Of a stretch of 64,000 bases of DNA, positions 11,343 to 22,958 are shown piece by piece. The DNA comes from Flavobacterium cutihirudinis (GTDB taxonomy: Bacteria > Bacteroidota > Bacteroidia > Flavobacteriales > Flavobacteriaceae). Under the pieces are notes generated by a model, which saw only the letters and a program-made list of their open reading frames with translations, was not told where the DNA came from and ran no database searches. How positions within the stretch are numbered: position 1 is the stretch's first letter; the number at the start of each line of letters is the position of its first letter. The stretch spans positions 372,001 through 436,000 of the forward strand of contig NZ_QRDQ01000010.1 of the NCBI RefSeq assembly GCF_003385895.1, read 5' to 3'. The position numbers and the translations under genes were made by a program.

Positions 11343-12806
11343 TTAAAAGCTTAGGTTTTTCCAGCCTTCTCTATAATTACGTTTTACAAATTGATTTACA
11401 TCGTCTACATTGGTTACTTTCTTGGCATCATTATCCCAAAGTAATTTAACGGAACGCCCAGGATATACATCTTCACCTAATACTTCCTTATGTAAATCAT
11501 AACCTCTAACAGCCAGATTTGCCATTAGCAATGCTTCGGTTAGAGGACCGGCGATTTCAAAAGGAGAACTAAGTTCTTTTTTTCCATAACCCGCAATACA
11601 GCCTTCAACCCATTGTTTATAATGTCCGTTGGCGCCATCTTTTACTCGAGGGTATTTTTCGGCTATTTTTAGATTTTCATTTCGAGATAAAGGCAATAAT
11701 CTTGGATTTTCACTATAAGTGTCACAAATCATTTTTCCTTTTGTTCCAATGAATAAAGTACCGTTTCCGCCATCGCCAAAAATCTCATTGGCTCCTAATT
11801 CTTCTGGACGTTCAGGCTGAATACCGCCATCCATCCAATGGACTTTGACATCGCCTTTGGTTTTATTTGTTTTTGGAAAAGTTAATGTTACATGACTTGA
11901 CGGCGGACAACTATCTGGGAAATAACCTCTTCTAAACTCATCAACATAGACAGAGCCAACGCTACACTGCACATCTTTGGCATATTTTAGATTTAAGACC
12001 GAAAACGGAGCTTCCATTAAATGGCAACCCATATCTCCAAGTGCTCCAGTTCCGTAATCCCACCAACCGCGCCAGTTGAATGGCACTAATTTGTCAGCAT
12101 AGTTTTTGTTGGGAGCAGTACCAAGCCATAAATCCCAATCGAGTTCTTTTGGTATTTCTGTTTTTGCTGTCGACCATGGAATTCCCTGAGGCCATACAGG
12201 TCTGTCAGTCCAGGCATAAACAGTATGAACATCACCAATTAAATCAGCTTCATACCATTCTTTTAAAATTCGGGTACCATCATTAGATGATCCCTGATTT
12301 CCCATCTGCGTAACAACTTTATATCTTGCCGCTGCCTGCGTCATCATATGCGCTTCGTAAATATCGTGTGCCATTGGTTTTTGCACATACACGTGTTTTC
12401 CTAACTGCATCGCCGAAAAGGCTTGAATAGCATGATTATGATCTGGTGTAGAAACAGAAACAGCATCAAAATTTTTATGTTCTTTGTCCAGCATTTCGCG
12501 CCAGTCTTTGTAGAATTTTGCTTTAGGATACGCTTTTACACTGTCAGCAGCTCTTCTGGTATCAACATCACACAAATAAGCAATATTTGCTAGTCCGCTT
12601 CTGTTAAAATTAGAAAGGTCAGATTGTCCTTTTCCACCAACACCAATACCGGCAATTAATAATTTGTCACTTGGCGCTACAAATCCTCTTCCCATAACAT
12701 GTCTGGGAATAATCATAAAAGCGGCAGTAGCTAATACTCCTTTTTTTAGGAAATCCCTGCGATCATTCGATTCAGGTTCTTTACTTTTATTGAAGTCTTG
12801 ATCCAT
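11343..12806 (-). CDS. Tat-exported Gfo/Idh/MocA family oxidoreductase
   Basis: 487 residues. A twin-Arg signal (NDRRDFLKKG, then a hydrophobic run) leads to a Rossmann NAD(P)-binding domain (IAGIGVGGKGQSD). A lysine-proline step (VYVQKPMAHD, near residue 145) and the C-terminal fold follow, with GALGDMGCHLMEAP as the likely catalytic Asp/His region. Exported members retain a tightly bound cofactor and can act as glycosidases (GH109-type redox mechanism) or sugar oxidoreductases. Given the cluster, oxidation or reduction at C3 of a glycoside is favoured. It ends 19 bp before the DUF1080 gene. Confidence 0.88.
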   Translation of the reverse strand: MDQDFNKSKEPESNDRRDFLKKGVLATAAFMIIPRHVMGRGFVAPSDKLLIAGIGVGGKGQSDLSNFNRSGLANIAYLCDVDTRRAADSVKAYPKAKFYKDWREMLDKEHKNFDAVSVSTPDHNHAIQAFSAMQLGKHVYVQKPMAHDIYEAHMMTQAAARYKVVTQMGNQGSSNDGTRILKEWYEADLIGDVHTVYAWTDRPVWPQGIPWSTAKTEIPKELDWDLWLGTAPNKNYADKLVPFNWRGWWDYGTGALGDMGCHLMEAPFSVLNLKYAKDVQCSVGSVYVDEFRRGYFPDSCPPSSHVTLTFPKTNKTKGDVKVHWMDGGIQPERPEELGANEIFGDGGNGTLFIGTKGKMICDTYSENPRLLPLSRNENLKIAEKYPRVKDGANGHYKQWVEGCIAGYGKKELSSPFEIAGPLTEALLMANLAVRGYDLHKEVLGEDVYPGRSVKLLWDNDAKKVTNVDDVNQFVKRNYREGWKNLSF

Positions 12807-12818
12807 ATAGAGTATATT

Positions 12819-13181
12819 TTATTTATTGAGTGAGAGAATGTATTTTGCAATTTTTTTCGCGTCATCTTTTTTTAATGCCGCATGAGGTAACATAGGAACG
12901 GCGCCCCAAACTCCAGAACCTCCTTTAATAATTTTATCCGATAAGTAATTGATGTTTTTCTCGTTGTGCGGATATTTTTTGGCAATATCCAAATAGGAAG
13001 GGCCCGCAACTTTTTTTTCTATTTTGTGGCAGGTAGCACAATCTAATTTTTTTAATATTGCCTCGGCTTCGGCGTGTTGAGTGTCTTGAATGTCAGTGTA
13101 GACATTTGGAATTGCTTGATAATTCGAAAAAGAGGTTGATCCATTCAGAGTTATTATCGCAATAAATAAAAATAATTTCAT
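12819..13181 (-). CDS. Periplasmic mono-haem cytochrome c
   Basis: 120 residues with a signal peptide (about 1-19), one CATCH haem site at residues 48-52 and an axial Met97 in VPMLPH. Class I c-type cytochrome, c551/c552-like. In FAD-dependent glucoside and alcohol dehydrogenases of the GMC plus small-subunit type, a cytochrome c takes the electrons from the flavin. Its place in the same operon as those subunits makes it the probable electron acceptor for the GMC enzyme, passing electrons to a terminal oxidase. Confidence 0.9.
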   Translation of the reverse strand: MKLFLFIAIITLNGSTSFSNYQAIPNVYTDIQDTQHAEAEAILKKLDCATCHKIEKKVAGPSYLDIAKKYPHNEKNINYLSDKIIKGGSGVWGAVPMLPHAALKKDDAKKIAKYILSLNK

Positions 13182-13199
13182 CTTATACTATTTAATAAT

Positions 13200-14252
13200 T
13201 TAAAGTCCTAAATTTTTTCTATTAAGCTGCGTGTTCGTTTCTACAGCAGCAAAATCATCAAAGGCTTTATCAGTTACTTTGATAATATGTTTTTTTATAA
13301 ATTCGGCTCCCTCGCGAGCACCATCTTCCTGGTTTTTCAGACAGCATTCCCATTCCATTACTGCCCAGCCTTTATAATCGTATTGCGCTAATTTGCTAAA
13401 GATGGTTTTAAAATCAATTTGACCATCTCCCGGAGAACGATAACGACCTGCACGATTTATCCAATTTTGGTATCCTCCAAAAGTACCTTGCTTTCCTGTT
13501 GGATTAAACTCAGCATCTTTTACGTGGAAAGCTTTGATTCGTTCGTGATAAAAATCGATATATTGAATATAATCCAATTGCTGTAAAACGAAATGTGAAG
13601 GATCATAAAGTAAGCAGGCTCGCTCATGATTGTTTACCGCTTTGAGAAACATTTCGTAAGTTTCGCCATCAAACAAATCTTCTCCAGGGTGAATTTCATA
13701 ACAAACATCCACACCATTTTTATCAAATTCGTTAAGGATTGGCAGCCAACGATTAGCCAGTTCTTTGAAACCTTCTTCAATTAAACCCGGCGGTCTTTGT
13801 GGCCAAGGATGAAAATATTGCCAAAGTAACGATCCGCTAAATGTAGCGTGGGCATTAAGACCTAGATTCTGGGAAGCTTTTGCCGCATAATGTAATTGTT
13901 GAACCGCCCATTCTTGCCTTGCTTTTGGATTTCCTCGCAAGTTTTTTGGAGCAAATCCATCAAAAAAATCATCATAAGCAGGATGAACAGCAACTAACTG
14001 ACCTTGCAAATGAGTAGAAAGTTCTGATATTTTTAATCCGTAAGAAGCAACAATTCCCGTAAGTTCATCAGCATAAGTTTTGCTTTCTGCGGCTTTTTGC
14101 AAATCGATAAAGCGAGTGTCTAAAGTTGGGATTTGTATTCCTTTAAAACCGAGATCGGCAGCCCATTGACAAATTCCTTCCAAAGAATTAAATGGAGCTT
14201 CGTCAGAAATAAACTGAGCTAAAAAGACTGCTGGTCCTTGTATTGTGGTCAT
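13200..14252 (-). CDS. Sugar phosphate isomerase/epimerase (TIM barrel)
   Basis: 350 residues with no signal peptide, so a cytoplasmic member of the xylose-isomerase-like superfamily. Metal-ligand regions are VCYEIHPGEDLFDG, CLLYDPSHFVL, AFHVKDAEFN and AVMEWECCLK. Flavobacterial relatives commonly accompany a cytoplasmic Gfo/Idh/MocA gene, as here (11 bp gap). It probably isomerises or epimerises an imported keto-sugar to a form that can enter central metabolism. The substrate cannot be deduced. Confidence 0.87.
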   Translation of the reverse strand: MTTIQGPAVFLAQFISDEAPFNSLEGICQWAADLGFKGIQIPTLDTRFIDLQKAAESKTYADELTGIVASYGLKISELSTHLQGQLVAVHPAYDDFFDGFAPKNLRGNPKARQEWAVQQLHYAAKASQNLGLNAHATFSGSLLWQYFHPWPQRPPGLIEEGFKELANRWLPILNEFDKNGVDVCYEIHPGEDLFDGETYEMFLKAVNNHERACLLYDPSHFVLQQLDYIQYIDFYHERIKAFHVKDAEFNPTGKQGTFGGYQNWINRAGRYRSPGDGQIDFKTIFSKLAQYDYKGWAVMEWECCLKNQEDGAREGAEFIKKHIIKVTDKAFDDFAAVETNTQLNRKNLGL

Positions 14253-14263
14253 ACTTTTTTAAT

Positions 14264-15418
14264 TTAAATTTTGAATTCCGTCCATTTTTGAGTTGATTTT
14301 CCGGAAGCGATTACATTTTCTATAAAAGCCATTCCTCTAACACCTTCTTCCACACTTGGAAAATCAAGCATAAATGCTGTTGGTTCTTTGTTTTCTAGTT
14401 TTGATTGTAGAGTAAGCGCAAAATTCTTGTATAAATTTCCAAAGGCTTCCAGATAACCTTCCGGATGTCCGCTTGGAATTCGTGTATTAAAAGCTGCTTC
14501 AGGCGATAAATAGCCGTTTCCGGTGCGATATAATTGAGCAGGGGAGTCCAGCCATTTTACAGTTAAGGTATTAGGCTCCATTTGATGCCATTCTAAACCG
14601 CCTTTTTCTCCATAGACTTTTATTTTTAGGCTATTCTCTTCGCCAGCAGCAATTTGGCTGGCTACTAAAATTCCGTTAGCGCCATTGTCGAATTTAAGCA
14701 AGACATTTCCGTCGTCATCTAATCTTCTGTTTGGGACGACAGTATTAATATCAGCACAAATTTGAGTGATTTTTAATCCTGAAATGTATTCAGCCAAATG
14801 AGCGGCATGAGTTCCAATATCACCCATACAACCACTAATACCACTTTTGGTAGGATCAGTTCTCCAAGCGGCTTGTTTGTTTCCATTGTTTTCAAAATCG
14901 CTACTCAGCCAGCCTTGAGGATATTCGACCATTATTTTCCGAATCTTTCCCAAATGATTTTCAGCTACCAGACTTCTGGCTTGTTTAACCATTGGATAAC
15001 CGGCGTAGGTATGTGTCAGACAAAGATAAAGTCCGGTTTCTTTTACTTTTTGTGCTAATAGTTTTGCTTCGTGTAAGCTCAAAGTCATTGGCTTGTCTAA
15101 AACAACGTGGAAGCCATTTTCTAATGCTAAAATTGCAGGAGCAAAGTGCGCATGATTTGGAGTTACTATCGAAACGAAATCCATTCGATCTTCAGGAGCC
15201 AGTTTTGCTTCTGTTTCTATCATTTGAGTATAAGATTCATAACATTTATCTTCAGATAAACCTAATTCTTTACCCGATTCAAGAGATACGTCAGGATTGG
15301 AACTAAAAGCTCCACAATGCAATTCGATTAATCCGTCCATGTTGGCAGCTATTCGGTGAACTGCTCCAATAAAAGCATTTTTACCACCACCAATCATTCC
15401 CATTTTTAATTTTCTCAT
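14264..15418 (-). CDS. Gfo/Idh/MocA family oxidoreductase (cytoplasmic)
   Basis: 384 residues without an export signal. The N-terminal Rossmann fold starts MGMIGGGKNAFIG. The catalytic lysine is in FHVVLDKPMTLSL near residue 110, and the C-terminal domain carries GCMGDIGTHAAHLAEY. It is predicted to be an NAD(P)-dependent sugar oxidoreductase, plausibly reducing a 3-keto sugar back to the aldose or oxidising an epimer. It sits between the GMC dehydrogenase gene and the cytoplasmic isomerase gene, with gaps of 17 and 11 bp. Confidence 0.89.
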   Translation of the reverse strand: MRKLKMGMIGGGKNAFIGAVHRIAANMDGLIELHCGAFSSNPDVSLESGKELGLSEDKCYESYTQMIETEAKLAPEDRMDFVSIVTPNHAHFAPAILALENGFHVVLDKPMTLSLHEAKLLAQKVKETGLYLCLTHTYAGYPMVKQARSLVAENHLGKIRKIMVEYPQGWLSSDFENNGNKQAAWRTDPTKSGISGCMGDIGTHAAHLAEYISGLKITQICADINTVVPNRRLDDDGNVLLKFDNGANGILVASQIAAGEENSLKIKVYGEKGGLEWHQMEPNTLTVKWLDSPAQLYRTGNGYLSPEAAFNTRIPSGHPEGYLEAFGNLYKNFALTLQSKLENKEPTAFMLDFPSVEEGVRGMAFIENVIASGKSTQKWTEFKI

Positions 15419-15435
15419 AACTGAATGTCCTGAAT

Positions 15436-17139
15436 CTAAATGTTTTTCTTCTTCAATTCTTTAACAGCATAATCGCAAGCTCTGGCCGTTAAAGCCATAT
15501 AAGTTAAAGAAGGATTCTGGCAAGCACTTGAAGGCATGCAAGATCCATCAGTAACAAATACATTGCTTACTTCATGCATTTGATTCCATTTATTCAATAC
15601 AGATTCTTTTGGATCATTCCCCATACGGGCAGTTCCCATTTCATGGATTGTCATTCCAGGATAACAACCATTATCGTAAGCTTTTACATTTTTAACACCA
15701 GCTGCTTCAAGCATTTCTACGGCGTCATACATCATATCTTCACGCATTTTAGCTTCATTCTCTTTATATTCACAATCTATAGCTAATACGGGTTGTCCCC
15801 ATTTGTCTTTTTTAGAATGATCGATATACACTTTGTTTTCGTAATAAGGAAGCATTTCTCCAAAGGCTCCTAATCCCATAGTCCACGAATCCGCTGGTTT
15901 TGATAAAAGATCTTTGAAATCTCCACCAAAATCCAGTTCGGCCACTTCTTTATGCCAGTGACCTCTACTTGCCGCACCCTGATATCCGAAGCCACGTAAA
16001 TAGTCTCTCTTATCATCTTTAAAGTTTTGATATCTTGGGATGTAGATACCATTTGGTCTTCGACCGTAAGTATATTTATCTTCAAAACCTTCAACAGTTC
16101 CCTCAGCGCCACATCTAAAATGATGATCCATTAAATTATGGCCTAAATGTCCACTACCATTGCCCAATCCATTAGGATGCGCTTCAGAAGTTGAATTCAA
16201 TAAAACAAATGTTGAACCCAATGTGGAGCCATTTACAAAAACAATTTTGGCATAAAATTCCATTGTTTCATTAGTCTGAGAATCGATTACCATTACACCT
16301 TTGGCTTTTTTGGTTTCCTTATCATAAATAATATGATTTACAATTGAATAAGGACGAACAGTCAGTTTTTTGGTAGCCATTGCAGCCGGTAACGTAGAAG
16401 ATTGTGTACTGAAATAAGCACCAAAAGGACAGCCTCTGCTGCATAAATTTCTGTACTGGCAATTTCCTCTGCCTAAATGTGGCACAGTAAGATTTGCAGA
16501 ACGACCAATAGTCAAAATTCTCGATTTATTATAGTGTTTTTCAATACGTTCTTTTACCGATTTTTCAACACAATTCATATCCATAGGAGGCAAAAATTGA
16601 CCGTCAGGTAATAAAGGCCAATTTTCATTTTGACCGCTTATTCCGGCAAATTTTTCTACATAATCATACCATGGAGCAATATCTTTATATCGGATTGGCC
16701 AATCATTACCATGACCATCTTTCAGGTTATCTTCGAAATTGTGATCACTGAAACGATAGCTTTGACGTCCCCACATTAATGATTTTCCACCAACGTGAAA
16801 TCCTCTGTACCAGTCAAAACGTTTGTCTTCAGTGTATGGACATTCTAAATCGTTTACCCACCAGCTTTCGTTAGCTTGACTGTATGGATAATCTCTTGTT
16901 TGTACAGGATGCGTTCTTTTTTGTTCTTCAGTCAATTTTCCGCAATAAGCTATTTCCCAAGGAGCTTTCATTGCCGATTCGTAATCTTTAACGTGCTCGA
17001 TGTTTTGTCCACGTTCCAGCATTAAGACTTTTAAACCTTTTTGTGTAAGTTCTTTAGCAGCCCATCCACCACTTATTCCAGAACCTATGACAATTGCGTC
17101 ATAAGTATTTTGTTTCTTTAAATCAGTATTTATATTCAC
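15436..17139 (-). CDS. GMC family FAD dehydrogenase, glucoside 3-dehydrogenase-like large subunit
   Basis: 567 residues. The FAD-binding motif VIGSGISGGWAAKEL lies at residues 17-31 and HVGGKSLMWGR near 115-125. The C-terminal catalytic pair is His in HEMGTARMG and Asn in QNPSLTYMAL. Cys227, Cys233 and Cys237 (CQYRNLCSRGC) resemble the Cys-rich segment that binds an Fe-S cluster in some related FAD-glucose dehydrogenases. There is no signal peptide; export probably relies on the Tat signal of the small subunit encoded 41 bp upstream. Expected to oxidise C3 of glucosides or disaccharides in the periplasm, donating electrons to the cytochrome c of this operon. Confidence 0.88.
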   Translation of the reverse strand: MNINTDLKKQNTYDAIVIGSGISGGWAAKELTQKGLKVLMLERGQNIEHVKDYESAMKAPWEIAYCGKLTEEQKRTHPVQTRDYPYSQANESWWVNDLECPYTEDKRFDWYRGFHVGGKSLMWGRQSYRFSDHNFEDNLKDGHGNDWPIRYKDIAPWYDYVEKFAGISGQNENWPLLPDGQFLPPMDMNCVEKSVKERIEKHYNKSRILTIGRSANLTVPHLGRGNCQYRNLCSRGCPFGAYFSTQSSTLPAAMATKKLTVRPYSIVNHIIYDKETKKAKGVMVIDSQTNETMEFYAKIVFVNGSTLGSTFVLLNSTSEAHPNGLGNGSGHLGHNLMDHHFRCGAEGTVEGFEDKYTYGRRPNGIYIPRYQNFKDDKRDYLRGFGYQGAASRGHWHKEVAELDFGGDFKDLLSKPADSWTMGLGAFGEMLPYYENKVYIDHSKKDKWGQPVLAIDCEYKENEAKMREDMMYDAVEMLEAAGVKNVKAYDNGCYPGMTIHEMGTARMGNDPKESVLNKWNQMHEVSNVFVTDGSCMPSSACQNPSLTYMALTARACDYAVKELKKKNI

Positions 17140-17180
17140 GGATGTAATTTTAGTATTAATATTTATAATTGCTTTGTCTT

Positions 17181-17741
17181 TTATGTTGCCCAGGCTTTTT
17201 GCCCAGTAACGTAGTCGACATTTCCATCATATTTGCCAGGTATTGGCAAATACTCTCTTGCGACTGTACAGCCTATTTCTGAAGAAAAATAACCTAATAG
17301 TGTTAAGTCTCTGGCAATCAAAAAGAATGAAGGTTCTTTATTGTTATCGATAGATTCTTGTCTAAGATCAGTTACCAGCATTTTTTTCTCTTCACTAGTA
17401 AGATTTAAGAATTCTTTATTGAATTTAGTTTTGCTTTTTGCCAGCATATTATCAAATCCATTTTTAAAAATTTTTTGCAAATCGGGAGGATAACATTCTT
17501 TTATAACCAAAGGAATAAATGCACCTACACCAGCGTCTTTAGCTCCGGGTGATGCTGCGGTTGTTGGTAAGATTATTTCTGAAAATTCAGATAATATTTC
17601 TTCATCTGTACTTGAAAAAGAATAACTGTTGTTTATTGGGTCAAATACAGTAAAACTTTCAAATATAACGCCCATTGTTGAGGCAGAAAGTGCTCCACCC
17701 AACAAATAAGCAAACTTTTTCAGTGCTTCTCTTCTTTCCAT
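17181..17741 (-). CDS. Gluconate 2-dehydrogenase subunit 3-like Tat-borne small subunit
   Basis: 186 residues beginning with a twin-Arg signal (ERREALKKFAYLLGGAL). The subunit-3 domain follows, with AGVGAFIPLVIKECYPPDLQ and DLTLLGYFSSEIGCTVAREYL. These small subunits stabilise and co-export the catalytic GMC subunit, which itself lacks a signal. This is the first gene of the operon, so the small subunit is made just before its partner. Family assignment is strong. Confidence 0.9.
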   Translation of the reverse strand: MERREALKKFAYLLGGALSASTMGVIFESFTVFDPINNSYSFSSTDEEILSEFSEIILPTTAASPGAKDAGVGAFIPLVIKECYPPDLQKIFKNGFDNMLAKSKTKFNKEFLNLTSEEKKMLVTDLRQESIDNNKEPSFFLIARDLTLLGYFSSEIGCTVAREYLPIPGKYDGNVDYVTGQKAWAT

Positions 17742-19059: not shown

Positions 19060-19193
19060 CTTTTTTTAAATCGTGCTTTTTGATTTAAAATAACATCAGG
19101 GAATAATTTTCATCAATAAAACAATGATTGCAAGAATCTTTGTATTGATTGAAATATCAATTACAGACTTATTGCAATTTAAACTATCATCAT

Positions 19194-20141
19194 ATGTCAG
19201 ATACAATAGAAAAAATTAAATGTCTTATTATAGGTTCGGGACCGGCGGGTTATACAGCATCAATCTATGCTGCCAGAGCAAATATGAATCCGGTTTTATA
19301 TCAGGGAATGCAGCCCGGAGGTCAATTGACTACCACAAATGAAGTAGAGAATTTTCCGGGTTATGTTGATGGTGTTACAGGTCCCGAAATGATGATCCAG
19401 TTACAGGAACAAGCAAAACGTTTTGGTGCGGATATCCGTGACGGCTGGGCTACAAAAGTTGATTTTTCAGGAGATATTCATAAAGTTTGGATTAATGATA
19501 CTATCGAATTGCATTGTGAAACTGTTATTATTTCGACAGGAGCATCTGCAAAATATTTAGGATTGCCATCAGAACAACATTATTTAAATATGGGAGGAGG
19601 AGTTTCTGCCTGCGCTGTTTGTGACGGATTTTTCTACAGAAATCAGGAAGTTGTAATTGTTGGAGCAGGTGACTCTGCTTGTGAAGAAGCGCATTATCTT
19701 TCTAAACTTTGTAAAAAAGTAACAATGTTGGTAAGAAGCGAAAAATTCAGAGCTTCTAAAATTATGGAAGAACGTGTTCGCAAAACTGAAAACATTGAGA
19801 TTTTAATGAATCACGATACTATTGAAGTTTTAGGTGATAATAACGTTGTTCATGCTATTAAAGCCTTAAACAAAACTACCGGAGAAGTAATCGAAATTCC
19901 TGCAACTGGTTTCTTCGTTGCAATTGGTCACAAACCAAATACAGACATCTTCAAAGATTATATCACGCTTGATGAAACAGGATATATTGTAAATACCCCT
20001 GGAACATCTAAAACAAATGTTGATGGTGTTTTTGTTGCAGGAGATGCTGCAGATCATGTCTATCGTCAGGCAATTACTGCAGCAGGAACGGGTTGTATGG
20101 CAGCTTTGGATGCAGAACATTATCTGGCGTCAAAAGACTAG
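19194..20141 (+). CDS. trxB: Thioredoxin-disulfide reductase
   Basis: 315 residues from the ATG at 19194. A TTG 45 bp upstream in frame would add 15 residues unlike the family, so the ATG is preferred. The FAD motif is IIGSGPAGYTAS (12-23), the redox-active pair is Cys140/Cys143 (SACAVCDG), the NADPH motif is VGAGDSACEEA, and the FAD-binding tail is VFVAGDAADHVYRQAITAAGTG. It reduces thioredoxin with NADPH in the cytoplasm. It converges on the ilvN-like gene and stands alone. Confidence 0.96.
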   Translation: MSDTIEKIKCLIIGSGPAGYTASIYAARANMNPVLYQGMQPGGQLTTTNEVENFPGYVDGVTGPEMMIQLQEQAKRFGADIRDGWATKVDFSGDIHKVWINDTIELHCETVIISTGASAKYLGLPSEQHYLNMGGGVSACAVCDGFFYRNQEVVIVGAGDSACEEAHYLSKLCKKVTMLVRSEKFRASKIMEERVRKTENIEILMNHDTIEVLGDNNVVHAIKALNKTTGEVIEIPATGFFVAIGHKPNTDIFKDYITLDETGYIVNTPGTSKTNVDGVFVAGDAADHVYRQAITAAGTGCMAALDAEHYLASKD

Positions 20142-20207: not shown

Positions 20208-20777
20208 TTATAACGTATTAGGATATTCTAGTTTAGAATTATGAAACTGCATCGCCTGTTCTTCTAATTCTTTCAATTCTTTTTCAAAACCTTCACTGGA
20301 TTTGATAAGAGAAATTGTAGCACTCTTTACAAACTCAACAAGTTCGAATTTTTGAAAAGCCAGAGTTAGACAATCTATTTCGTTTTCCTGACCGGTGAAC
20401 TCAATGAAAGTGTATTTTTTTTCAACGGATACAAATTTGGCGCTATACTTTTTTAGTAAGACATCAAAATTTTCAGCTGTCATCAGAACCTTTGTTGGGA
20501 CTTTATATAAGACAGTTTGTACAATGACTATTTCCTCATTACTGTTACAATAACATTTAAAGACATCAATAATTTTTTCTATTTGAAGAGTAAGGTTTTT
20601 TACTATTTCTGAAGTTTCATTCACAACAATAGTAAAGCGGAACATTCTGGCAATTTCGCATGAAGAAATATTCAGGCTTTTCAAACTGATTTTTTTCCTT
20701 GAAAACATGATGGCTATTTTATTCATTAAGCCTATTTGATCTTCGGTGTAAACTGTTAACGTATATTCTTCTTTCAT
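20208..20777 (-). CDS. Acetolactate synthase small-subunit (IlvN/IlvH)-like ACT-domain protein, orphan
   Basis: 189 residues. The N-terminal ACT domain (about 3-75) has YTLTVYTEDQIGLMNKIAIM and KISLKSLNISS, matching the IlvN pattern. The C-terminal domain (about 80-165) also has the IlvN order, ending in EFVKSATISLIK. IlvN proteins bind valine-type effectors and activate or feedback-inhibit the large subunit. No ilvB, ilvC or ilvD lies nearby, so this is either a relocated ilvN or a paralogue; the gene is monocistronic. Regulation by branched-chain amino acids is strongly suggested by two Ile-rich leader peptides and terminators in the 300 bp upstream. Family placement is good; the partner is unknown. 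Confidence 0.82.
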   Translation of the reverse strand: MKEEYTLTVYTEDQIGLMNKIAIMFSRKKISLKSLNISSCEIARMFRFTIVVNETSEIVKNLTLQIEKIIDVFKCYCNSNEEIVIVQTVLYKVPTKVLMTAENFDVLLKKYSAKFVSVEKKYTFIEFTGQENEIDCLTLAFQKFELVEFVKSATISLIKSSEGFEKELKELEEQAMQFHNSKLEYPNTL

Positions 20778-20818
20778 TATGGTTTTATTGTTAAGCGATT
20801 AAAATTTTAGATAAAAAA

Positions 20819-20849
20819 AAACCTTCCTCGTTTTGACTGAGAAAGGTTT
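20819..20849 (-). terminator. Attenuator terminator 2 (proximal)
   Basis: On the minus strand AAACCTT.CTC pairs with GAG.AAGGTTT (20843-20849 with 20819-20825, plus an inner 3-bp stem) and is followed by a T9 run. It lies between the proximal leader peptide and the ilvN-like start codon at 20777, 42 bp away, so it must be bypassed for expression. The segment GACGAGTCAGG at 20867-20877, overlapping the leader stop, can instead pair with the 5' arm (CCTTTCTCAGTC, 20835-20846). That is the expected antiterminator. Confidence 0.8.
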
Positions 20850-20875
20850 GTATTAGACAATATAATCCTGACTCG

Positions 20876-20932
20876 TCATATGAGACAAATGATAATAATT
20901 GCGATAATGATACTAACTACTAAATTTTTCAT
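20876..20932 (-). CDS. Ile/Val/Leu-rich leader peptide 2
   Basis: An 18-codon frame, MKNLVVSIIIAIIIICLI, ending in TGA at 20876-20878. Eight Ile, two Val and two Leu make 12 of 18 residues branched-chain. It begins 11 bp after the T-run of the first attenuator terminator and ends 27 bp before the next one. Composition, size and position are those of an attenuation leader that senses charged Ile/Val/Leu tRNA. A membrane micropeptide is a weaker alternative, since it would not explain the flanking terminators. Confidence 0.82.
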   Translation of the reverse strand: MKNLVVSIIIAIIIICLI

Positions 20933-20943
20933 GTTTGTTTAAA

Positions 20944-20973
20944 TAAAAAAACCTCCCGTTTCAGGGAGGTTTT
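20944..20973 (-). terminator. Attenuator terminator 1 (distal)
   Basis: AAAACCTCCC (20964-20973) pairs perfectly with GGGAGGTTTT (20948-20957) around a 6-nt loop, followed on the minus strand by a T-run. The tract suits minus-strand transcription, so this is not a terminator for trxB. It lies 46 bp after leader peptide 1 and 12 bp before leader peptide 2. Confidence 0.88.
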
Positions 20974-21002
20974 AAAAAAATGGTATCGTAATACTTTTAT
21001 AT

Positions 21003-21050
21003 AAAATTCCCTCTACTACTATCGAATGATAATAATATTAATAATAGAGG
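21003..21050 (-). promoter_or_regulatory. Protector and antiterminator segments of attenuator 1
   Basis: CCTCTATTATTA inside leader 1 (21039-21050) can pair over 12 bp, two of them G-U, with TAGTAGTAGAGG at its end (21010-21021). This is a region 1:2 hairpin. The overlapping AGGGAATTTT (21003-21012) can instead pair with AAAACCTCCCT of the terminator 5' arm (20963-20973), a region 2:3 antiterminator. A ribosome stalled on the Ile codons would mask region 1 and favour readthrough. Confidence 0.75.
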
Positions 21051-21069
21051 TATTGATTTGTTTTTTCAT
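21019..21069 (-). CDS. Ile-rich leader peptide 1 with triple TAG stop
   Basis: A 16-codon frame, MKKQINTSIINIIIIR, with seven Ile. It is closed by TAG at 21019-21021 and followed directly by two more in-frame TAG codons. The ATG is about 16 bp after a TATATTTG -7 element, so it lies at the very start of the transcript. The mirrored codon runs ATT-ATT and TAG-TAG-TAG form the two arms of the protector hairpin, so the sequence is constrained both as code and as RNA structure. Confidence 0.82.
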   Translation of the reverse strand: MKKQINTSIINIIIIR

Positions 21070-21084
21070 TGTTAATGTAAAGTG

Positions 21085-21092
21085 CAAATATA
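21085..21092 (-). promoter_or_regulatory. Putative -7 promoter element of the attenuated transcript
   Basis: TATATTTG on the minus strand matches the Bacteroidota -7 consensus TAnnTTTG. Transcription would start near 21078-21080, giving a leader of about 300 nt before the ilvN-like gene. No clear TTTG -33 box lies about 20 bp upstream. Confidence 0.55.
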
Positions 21093-21278
21093 TCATTTTT
21101 TAGAATAGATAATGTGTTTTTTTTTATATGTGAATATGATTGTAATTTTTGAGCTCTTCATTGTAATTTAAAAATGAAATAAAAGCTGAAAGCAAAAAAC
21201 ACATAATTTAAAAAAGCAATTTGTAAGTGATATCCGTATGTAAGTGTTTGAAATGTAAAAGAATAATATTTACGGAAC

Positions 21279-21437: not shown

Positions 21438-22958
21438 ATGAACTCAGAAAATATAGATACAACAGTTAATTCAGGATTCTCCGAAAGAATAGAGAACTTG
21501 GAATCTTATTTCAGCGCATTTCGTGAAGGAATTGTCGGAACAGAACAAAGTTTTGAATCACCTTACGGGATTCAGAAAATTATTTATGCTGATTGGACTG
21601 CCAGCGGAAGATTGTACAGACCAATTGAAGAAAAATTGCTCAATGAAGTTGGACCGTATGTGGCAAATACCCACACAGAAACCGCTGTTACTGGCTCTGT
21701 CATGACTCATGCTTATCATGATGCGCGACAAATTATAAAAGACCACGTTAATGCATCGGTAGATGATATATTGATTACGGAAGGAACAGGAATGACTGGA
21801 GCGATTAATAAATTCCAACGTATTTTAGGCCTGAAAGTCAATGAAAACTTAAGAAAGCATACGAATGTTCCTGAGGATTTGAGACCGATTATTTTTGTTT
21901 CGCATATGGAGCATCATTCCAATCAGACATCATGGCTTGAAACTATTGCAAGAGTAGAGGTTATTCCTGCTGATTTAGATGGTTTGCCTTCTTTGACAGG
22001 TCTTGAGGATTTGCTTAAGAATTATAAAGAGACACCTATAAAAATTGCCGCGATAACGGGCTGTTCTAATGTAACAGGAATACGAACCAATTATCATGCA
22101 ATTGCAGGAATAATGCACAAACATGGCGGGCTTTGTTTTGTAGATTTTGCCTGTTCAGCGCCTTACACAGATATCGATATGCATCCGGAAAAAGAAGAAG
22201 AGTATTTAGATGCCATTACTTTTTCACCTCATAAATTCCTTGGAGGTCCGGGTTCTTGCGGTGTATTAATTTTCAATAAAAAACTGTATAAAAATCTAGT
22301 TCCTGATAATCCTGGAGGAGGTACTGTATCGTATACCAATCCGTGGGGAGACCGCGATTATATCGATGATATAGAAACCAGAGAAGATGGCGGTACACCA
22401 GGGTTTCTTCAGACTATTAGAACAGCTATGGCCATTAGACTGAAAGAACAGATGGGAACGGAGAATATTTTGAGAAGAGAGCACGAACTTAATTCAATTA
22501 TTTTTGAAAGACTTTCCAAAATAGAAAATCTACAGATACTTGCACCAAAAAACACAGATCGTCTTGGGCTATTTTCTTTTTATATTGAAGATCTGCATTA
22601 TAATTTGATTGTTAGGTTGCTAAATGACCGTTTCGGTATTCAAACTAGAGGAGGTTGTTCCTGCGCAGGTACATACGGACATTATTTATTAAATGTAGAT
22701 GTGTCATTGTCAAAATCAATCGAGCAGAAGATATTAGGCGGATGTTTGGCTGAGCGTCCAGGCTGGATCAGAATGTCAATTCATCCTACAATGACTAATA
22801 AAGAGATTGAATATATATGCGATGCTATTGCGCTTGTTGCACAAAATGCTGAGCACTGGCAGACTGCTTATCGTTATGATAATAAAAAGAACGACTTTAT
22901 TCATTTGGCAGGTGAATCAGTTGAAAAAGATATTATTAAAAATTGGTTCACTGCTTAA
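21438..22958 (+). CDS. Class V aminotransferase-fold PLP enzyme (cysteine desulfurase-like)
   Basis: 506 residues of fold-type I, class V PLP enzymes. Lys266 in SPHKFLGGPGS is the PLP Schiff-base lysine. VDFACSAPYTD near residue 235 supplies the cofactor Asp, and THTETAVTGSVMTHAYHDA is conserved near the start. Cys407 and Cys409 in RGGCSCAGTYGH sit where SufS/CsdA enzymes carry the persulfide Cys loop. It is about 100 residues longer than SufS and has no suf neighbours, so the substrate is uncertain. Cysteine desulfuration and another beta-elimination are both possible. Confidence 0.82.
   Translation: MNSENIDTTVNSGFSERIENLESYFSAFREGIVGTEQSFESPYGIQKIIYADWTASGRLYRPIEEKLLNEVGPYVANTHTETAVTGSVMTHAYHDARQIIKDHVNASVDDILITEGTGMTGAINKFQRILGLKVNENLRKHTNVPEDLRPIIFVSHMEHHSNQTSWLETIARVEVIPADLDGLPSLTGLEDLLKNYKETPIKIAAITGCSNVTGIRTNYHAIAGIMHKHGGLCFVDFACSAPYTDIDMHPEKEEEYLDAITFSPHKFLGGPGSCGVLIFNKKLYKNLVPDNPGGGTVSYTNPWGDRDYIDDIETREDGGTPGFLQTIRTAMAIRLKEQMGTENILRREHELNSIIFERLSKIENLQILAPKNTDRLGLFSFYIEDLHYNLIVRLLNDRFGIQTRGGCSCAGTYGHYLLNVDVSLSKSIEQKILGGCLAERPGWIRMSIHPTMTNKEIEYICDAIALVAQNAEHWQTAYRYDNKKNDFIHLAGESVEKDIIKNWFTA

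Follow-up and report, generated by a model that had tools for sequence, protein, structure and literature searches.

Putative tandem isoleucine-reading attenuators before a solo ilvN-like gene in Flavobacterium

The double leader and its conservation

The analysed stretch of 64,000 nucleotides from Flavobacterium cutihirudinis (hereafter the window) carries a solo ilvN-like gene on the minus strand which is monocistronic in layout, being flanked by a convergent and a divergent neighbour. The region in front of it reads, on the same strand, as a promoter box, leader 1, terminator 1, leader 2, terminator 2 and the start of the ilvN-like gene. The features are given below in this order, with the two neighbours first:

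21438-22958, plus strand: cysteine desulfurase-like gene, divergent from the ilvN-like gene
19149-20141, plus strand: pyridine nucleotide-disulphide oxidoreductase gene, trxB-like by eye, convergent to the ilvN-like gene
21085-21092, minus strand: promoter -7 box TATATTTG of the Bacteroidota TAnnTTTG type
21019-21069, minus strand: leader peptide 1, MKKQINTSIINIIIIR, stop TAG; 16 aa with 7 Ile, the Ile run being conserved among relatives
21010-21050, minus strand: protector of unit 1, CCTCTATTATTA (21039-21050) paired with TAGTAGTAGAGG (21010-21021), from folds and arm-swap
20963-21012, minus strand: antiterminator of unit 1, AGGGAATTTTATATAAAAGTA paired with a stretch ending AAAACCTCCCT, from the stalled-state fold
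20944-20973, minus strand: intrinsic terminator 1, AAAACCTCCC TGAAAC GGGAGGTTTT and a U tract, from the terminator scan and arm-swap
20876-20932, minus strand: leader peptide 2, MKNLVVSIIIAIIIICLI, stop TGA; 18 aa with 12 Ile/Val/Leu, of these 8 Ile
20871-20890, minus strand: protector of unit 2, inner hairpin ATTTGTC/GACGAGT, from folds
20834-20878, minus strand: antiterminator of unit 2, TGACGAG..AGG paired with CCT..CTC(A)GTCA, from the stalled-state fold and arm-swap
20812-20849, minus strand: intrinsic terminator 2, AAACCTTTCTC AGTCAAAAC GAGGAAGGTTT and a U tract, from the custom terminator scanner and arm-swap
20208-20777, minus strand: solo ilvN-like gene with its start at 20777; 189 aa, homologue of the AHAS small subunit

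The -7 box was assigned with the Bacteroidota consensus TAnnTTTG (PMC6847099) instead of a sigma-70 promoter scan, which is uninformative for this phylum. The consensus terminator scan listed terminator 1 only; terminator 2 came from the separate custom scanner. The initial annotation had described tandem leader-peptide attenuators between a single likely promoter and an ilvN-like gene; all of these parts are present, and the arrangement recurs in the 61 distinct solo upstreams analysed. It had also proposed folding of the 315-nt leader (20778-21092, minus strand), which resulted in z = -4.66, with none of 100 shuffles folding as well. Further along the minus strand, positions 11343-17741 of the window hold a cluster of a small redox-subunit-like ORF, a GMC-type oxidoreductase-like gene, two Gfo/Idh-like genes, a TIM-barrel isomerase-like gene and a cytochrome c-like gene, which, with gene names given by eye, probably serves sugar oxidation.

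Relatives of the ilvN-like gene were found in 84 of 199 related genomes and in 218 of 398 genomes of the genus, with canonical and ilvB-linked ilvN being counted as well. From the named-genome scan, which gave 175 relatives, the best 80 were analysed, comprising 45 solo loci (in 44 genomes) and 35 loci behind a long ORF. In this set, similarity to IlvB was present upstream of every linked locus (35 of 35, at 33 of which it ended no more than 304 nt away) and of none of the 45 solo ones. The 44 genomes with solo loci are Flavobacterium, except for L082 and L114, which are named Flavobacteriaceae bacterium. F. johnsoniae strain CI04 has the locus as well (L068). Among the same best 80, the custom scanner recognised two terminators upstream of 44 of the 45 solo loci, and at the remaining one (L098) the second stem carries one inner mismatch, terminator 2 being recognisable by eye. 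The same scanner found no terminators within 450 nt upstream of the 35 ilvB-linked loci. The assignment as solo or linked followed a rule for most loci and was done by eye for L139-L151 (13, solo) and L152-L158 (seven, linked).

Pooling of all sources gave 97 solo loci with 61 distinct upstreams. The scanner found terminator 1 in every one of these and terminator 2 in 60 of them, the remaining upstream showing it by eye; leader 2 was identified in 61 and leader 1 in 60. At L062 a contig end removes leader 1, and this locus was omitted from the unit-1 alignment (54 of 55 rows). Both units were also found at two further, very diverged loci, with the protein at ~32-33% local identity, and in a genome with three solo copies (G367: L040, L139 and L140) every copy has its own pair of units. 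Because it recurs in the 61 distinct solo upstreams and at the two diverged loci, the arrangement in the window is beyond chance. On the protein tree the solo genes need a single origin, with a support of 88/42 when the long branch L149 is included and 100/99 for the other 60, and they adjoin the flavobacterial ilvB-linked ilvN.

All 60 loci with leader 1 have exactly one TAnnTTTG box within 60 nt before it, at a distance of 15-20 nt from the ATG of leader 1 in 59 loci and of 31 nt in the remaining locus. Between leader 1 and ilvN, a further box occurred in 2 of the 60 loci versus 225 of 1200 mononucleotide shuffles. The Rfam scan of the whole window gave no match at gathering level; the best one over the attenuators, Phe_leader (RF01859), scored 31.5 bits in unit 1 and 21.2 bits in unit 2 against a gathering cut-off of 55 bits, and this identity was rejected. 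No T-box covariance model was among the eight matches up to E = 1 in positions 20700-21200 of the window.

Leader peptides and alternative pairings

Leader 2 of the window includes 8 Ile, 2 Val and 2 Leu, and it had been read in the initial annotation as an Ile/Val/Leu sensor. The resulting dual-signal device, with leader 1 reading Ile and leader 2 reading Ile, Val and Leu together, finds its ground in this composition, but the comparison of species does not bear it out. The mean content was 7.8 Ile, 0.20 Val and 0.62 Leu in leader 1 (60 loci) and 7.7 Ile, 0.46 Val and 1.07 Leu in leader 2 (61 loci), so that Ile dominates both leaders across species, and neither Val nor Leu of the window's leader 2 is conserved over the 61 loci. 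Moreover, the mixed leader in these genomes is the Ile/Val one before ilvD. The dual-signal reading was rejected on the lack of conserved Val and Leu, and we regard it as highly improbable. The AUA codon made up 28 of 941 Ile codons in the leaders versus 361 of 1245 in the ilvN genes, as if the sensed tRNA were the one reading AUU/AUC. The codon and amino acid counts retain L074, L091 and L101, in which leader 1 was taken in a wrong frame; these three were dropped from the -3 counts given below.

In the alignment, the columns of leader 1 had 56 gap runs of three nucleotides and three of a single nucleotide; those of leader 2 had 85 runs of three and three of six nucleotides, all multiples of three. 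Variability was flat over the codon positions (0.149, 0.200 and 0.177 for leader 1; 0.171, 0.172 and 0.197 for leader 2), so that this test for translation gave no clear third-position excess. In F. johnsoniae an adenine at -3 acts as a positive determinant (PMC6847099); it was present before leader 1 in 30 of 57 cases and before leader 2 in 42 of 61. Over the 61 distinct loci both leaders carry runs of Ile codons, Ile being the end-product amino acid. At L074, L091, L108, L112, L128 and L148 leader 1 extends well past the Ile run, making the classical geometry less clear there.

The folds, available for 10 of 54 rows in unit 1 and 10 of 55 rows in unit 2, demonstrated alternative structures in both units. 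Masking of the Ile-stalled ribosome led to a long antiterminator in unit 1, GGGAuGUU...AACcUCCC plus inner pairs, and to the UGACGAG..AGG/CCU..CUCaGUCA antiterminator in unit 2; the protectors appeared in both units in the unmasked folds. Protector, antiterminator and terminator of unit 1, which had previously been drawn by hand, all came out of the folds. A protector of unit 2 had been considered unclear, but it is present as the inner pairing AUUUGUC/GACGAGU (20884-20890 with 20871-20877) with outer pairs running upstream into the Ile codons and downstream as far as ATTGTCTAAT. It is modest in the window, with -6.5 kcal/mol for the inner part and -8.8 kcal/mol for the whole. By sequence and folding, each unit combines an intrinsic terminator, an antiterminator which excludes it and a protector. 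In folds including the 3' arm the terminators beat the antiterminators past the stall edge in the 20 rows listed, and therefore the attenuation model needs kinetic precedence.

An RNAalifold consensus on MAFFT columns was mostly uninformative, with zero pairs for antiterminator 1, which we put down to misaligned AT-rich gaps; arm-swap tests and 5'-arm shuffles were therefore used. In the former, arms were exchanged between clusters at 80% identity (13 in unit 1 and 11 in unit 2) in 5000 permutations; the figures from both approaches are indications, since related sequences are not independent. The number of permutations equal to or better than the own pairing was 1 for terminator 1, 0 for protector 1, 75 for terminator 2 and 13 for antiterminator 2, each out of 5000. 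Antiterminator 1, with both arms too conserved to vary, had 1862 such permutations of 5000 and gained no covariation support. Protector 2 gave 236 of 5000 in the first run and 933 of 5000 for the inner hairpin alone; with wider arms and six hand-picked loci the result was 0 of 5000, helped by two strong loci. The mean z against shuffled 5' arms was -1.86 for the terminator, -2.34 for the protector and -1.33 for the antiterminator of unit 1, and -2.68 for the terminator, -1.88 for the antiterminator and -0.57 for the protector of unit 2, where the protector is the softest pairing. The alignment with orthologous loci that the initial annotation had asked for thus upheld the conservation of the Ile runs, and the search for matched arms spoke for both terminators, protector 1 and antiterminator 2, being uninformative for antiterminator 1 and softer for protector 2.

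At six loci (L015, L053, L054, L077, L082 and L087) region 2 is GAUGAG instead of GACGAG and the opposite leader codon is CAU (His), in place of the CGU or UGU found at most other loci; four of the six also have CUCAU in region 3 in place of CUCAGUC. Such a change in three strands fits mutually exclusive pairings, although by the protein tree it may represent only one or two events.

Taken by the sequence features tested, the best reading of each unit is a leader-peptide attenuator of the known kind. Alternatively, translation or RNA stability might be the main target of the leaders, or small RNAs might arise from the terminators, with little attenuation of ilvN; terminated leader RNAs would indeed accumulate, and a leader peptide acting in trans has been described in another bacterium (PMC7298713). 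We consider this very unlikely: attenuation requires just such antiterminator and protector pairings preceded closely by Ile codons, and terminator 2 ends 35 nt before ilvN, leaving the gene start uncovered.

Related units in the same genome and in relatives

A covariance search was run on 120 relatives with strict filters, so that its counts are lower bounds. In the own genome the unit-1 model recovered the window, a leader before ilvA and a leader before ilvD, together with three more matches at E 0.19-0.73. Two single leaders served for comparison:

G000:C5:270541-270696, own genome (L222, L211): single Ile leader MTNFNNIIIAFISIIAIQQ and one terminator before ilvA, the gene identified by NCBIfam
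L031:3794-3925: single mixed leader MQISVIIISSVVVVNVISTSASGML and a terminator before ilvD of the canonical operon

In three other genomes (L223-L225) an ilvA-like gene likewise follows a leader of this sort with its terminator, and the ilvD leader of L031 has the element GGGAAUGUUAUA in common with unit 1. Mixed Ile/Val leaders, such as MQISIIITSVVVVNVIHTSASGML, are typical of ilvD: a single mixed leader and a single terminator, the latter within 330 nt of ilvD, belong to the ilvD-B-N operon in 18 of 18 relatives, a count made from 20 loci after exclusion of L167 (without an ilvD start) and L178 (an operon of a different kind, in which an ilvE-like gene is preceded by one leader). The own genome likewise has, by eye, a single mixed Ile/Val leader before ilvD-B-N-C; its canonical second ilvN follows ilvD and ilvB and precedes ilvC, with leuA and leuB ahead identified by eye only.

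Multiple units were found before larger operons as well. Two units precede ilvBN in G070 (ilvB by NCBIfam, ilvN by eye) and ilvE-D-B-N operons in G011 and G061 (gene names by eye), and three leader/terminator units precede ilvE-D-B-N-C in G009 (L217:1041-1465; ilvE by NCBIfam, the rest by eye). Units 2 and 3 of the latter are identical in 121 of 136 aligned columns and represent, as judged from their sequences, a recent duplication. From these four operons it follows that serial units occur with ilvB still present and that units duplicate; the solo arrangement may have come from a multi-unit operon containing ilvB. The number of serial gates ranges from one before ilvA and two before solo ilvN or ilvBN to three in the one ilvE-D-B-N-C operon. 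The unit-2 model matched unit 1 weakly and in register in six genomes (E 2.4e-4 to 5.4e-3), which would fit an old duplication of the units, although scattered matches were equally strong.

Such duplications, seen in G009, give some ground to the view that only one unit of the solo loci works and the other is a leftover. However, the 61 distinct solo loci have retained the two units along with conserved terminators, Ile runs and pairing, and both have been kept at the two loci with a strongly diverged protein, making a leftover unlikely. Retention through speciation, gene duplication and strong protein divergence suggests that the gate number itself is under selection.

Two sequences from other families (L220:2010-2250 and L221:1700-1950, both on the reading strand) show by eye a hairpin resembling a terminator but no evident leader peptide with it, followed by a short leader (MLRFDIISNVIILLRET in L220), a second terminator-like hairpin and then ilvB.

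The encoded subunit and the proposed regulation

The ilvN-like product scored above the cut-offs of Pfam ALS_ss_C (44.9 vs 23.2 bits) and TIGR00119 (63.4 vs 56.9 bits) and below that of NF008864 (82.1 bits, cut-off 119). Its own genome has a single IlvB match. In E. coli IlvH, G14 is named first among the three residues that affect valine inhibition most strongly (PMC13158618). Of the distinct solo proteins, 33 of 61 carry a different residue at the equivalent position (R in 18, E in 4, D in 4, Q in 3, K in 2, A in 1 and N in 1), compared with none of 52 linked and none of 14 canonical ones. At the equivalent of N29 of E. coli IlvH, which we take to have a role in valine feedback, asparagine is found in 11 of 61 solo, 41 of 52 linked and 14 of 14 canonical proteins, and both residues are retained in 6 of 61, 41 of 52 and 14 of 14, respectively. 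The solo IlvN family is thus likely to be valine-desensitised. For the window's own protein this is not certain: it has G at the first position and S at the second, and S at the N29-equivalent was also found in 11 of 52 linked proteins.

With the anatomy, conservation, pairing potential and single promoter box observed at the locus, we consider it quite probable that two ribosome-mediated, Ile-reading attenuators stand in series before a monocistronic second AHAS small subunit. From these data we infer stalling, termination, a product rule for readthrough and a subunit serving as feedback-desensitised partner of the single IlvB. When Ile-tRNA is plentiful, ribosomes would run on to the stop codons of the leaders, thereby covering region 2, and the transcript could end at either terminator. 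When it is short, ribosomes would stall in both Ile runs, both antiterminators would form and the polymerase would reach ilvN; in an untranslated leader the protectors would favour termination. Since both gates must open, total readthrough would equal that of one gate multiplied by that of the other; basal expression would then be low, and a steeper response from serial gates would fit as well. With the desensitised solo subunit and the single IlvB, Ile synthesis could continue while valine inhibits the main enzyme.

A more far-reaching proposal, which we hold tentatively and at somewhat less than even confidence, is that a sharp AND-gate for Ile starvation releases a valine-insensitive subunit which takes over IlvB, and that the gate number is a tunable, duplicating module. 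If true, valine excess could not starve the cell of isoleucine, and threshold and steepness would be set by the unit count. The small-subunit swap would point to a regulatory answer against valine-induced isoleucine starvation.

Textbook amino acid attenuation uses one leader per operon, with ilvBN, ilvGMEDA, thr, his and trp of E. coli as the classical single-leader examples. The ilvN units share with them the regulatory codons in a leader peptide, the protector, the antiterminator and the intrinsic terminator; however, there are two units at the ilvN locus, and three in one relative, instead of one per operon. Repeated T-boxes, e.g., at B. subtilis thrZ, are tandem leader RNAs for the same signal and resemble the ilvN units as a series of terminators reading one amino acid, but they bind uncharged tRNA directly instead of acting through leader peptides.

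Among the cited cases, attenuation of E. coli ilvGMEDA (PMC8406616) is of the single-leader type. The leader of Salmonella mgtCBR holds the tandem attenuators mgtM and mgtP (PMC3641672), likewise two leader ORFs in one leader, each governing transcription into the same genes; according to the passages of that source, these respond to ATP and proline, independently and additively, through stem-loops unlike intrinsic terminators, whereas at the ilvN locus both leaders read Ile, intrinsic terminators follow both and the gene is biosynthetic. The tandem riboswitches of Bacillus clausii metE, as presented in the same passages, also place two units in one leader, each with its expected intrinsic terminator, but in that case two different metabolites are bound by the RNA itself, in contrast to the ilvN units, which would sense Ile through ribosomes in both cases. 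For Flavobacterium psychrophilum, of the same genus, the same general mechanism, leader-peptide attenuation before amino acid operons, has been suggested from transcriptome data (PMC9723704); the passages of that paper mention no tandem attenuators, and its main text has no words beginning with ilv. E. coli AHAS II provides, by the passages of PMC8406616, a comparable second regulatory state of AHAS which escapes valine inhibition, but as a whole separate isozyme, whereas the genome of the window has an extra small subunit only and a single IlvB match.

A leader-peptide tandem for one and the same signal was not found in the literature searched, which consisted mainly of papers open without subscription. 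Within that literature, the new element is the constant use of two leaders in series, and in one case three, for a single amino acid, since the printed tandem example that was found combines two different signals. The Flavobacterium double leader therefore offers a clean test of whether serial attenuation serves low leakage, steepness or both.

Finally, four solo loci (L150, L151, L182 and L183) encode products of only 142-146 aa in which the match to the query is confined to the N-terminal half; both attenuators are present there, and these short products may, judging by their sequences, have taken on another role.
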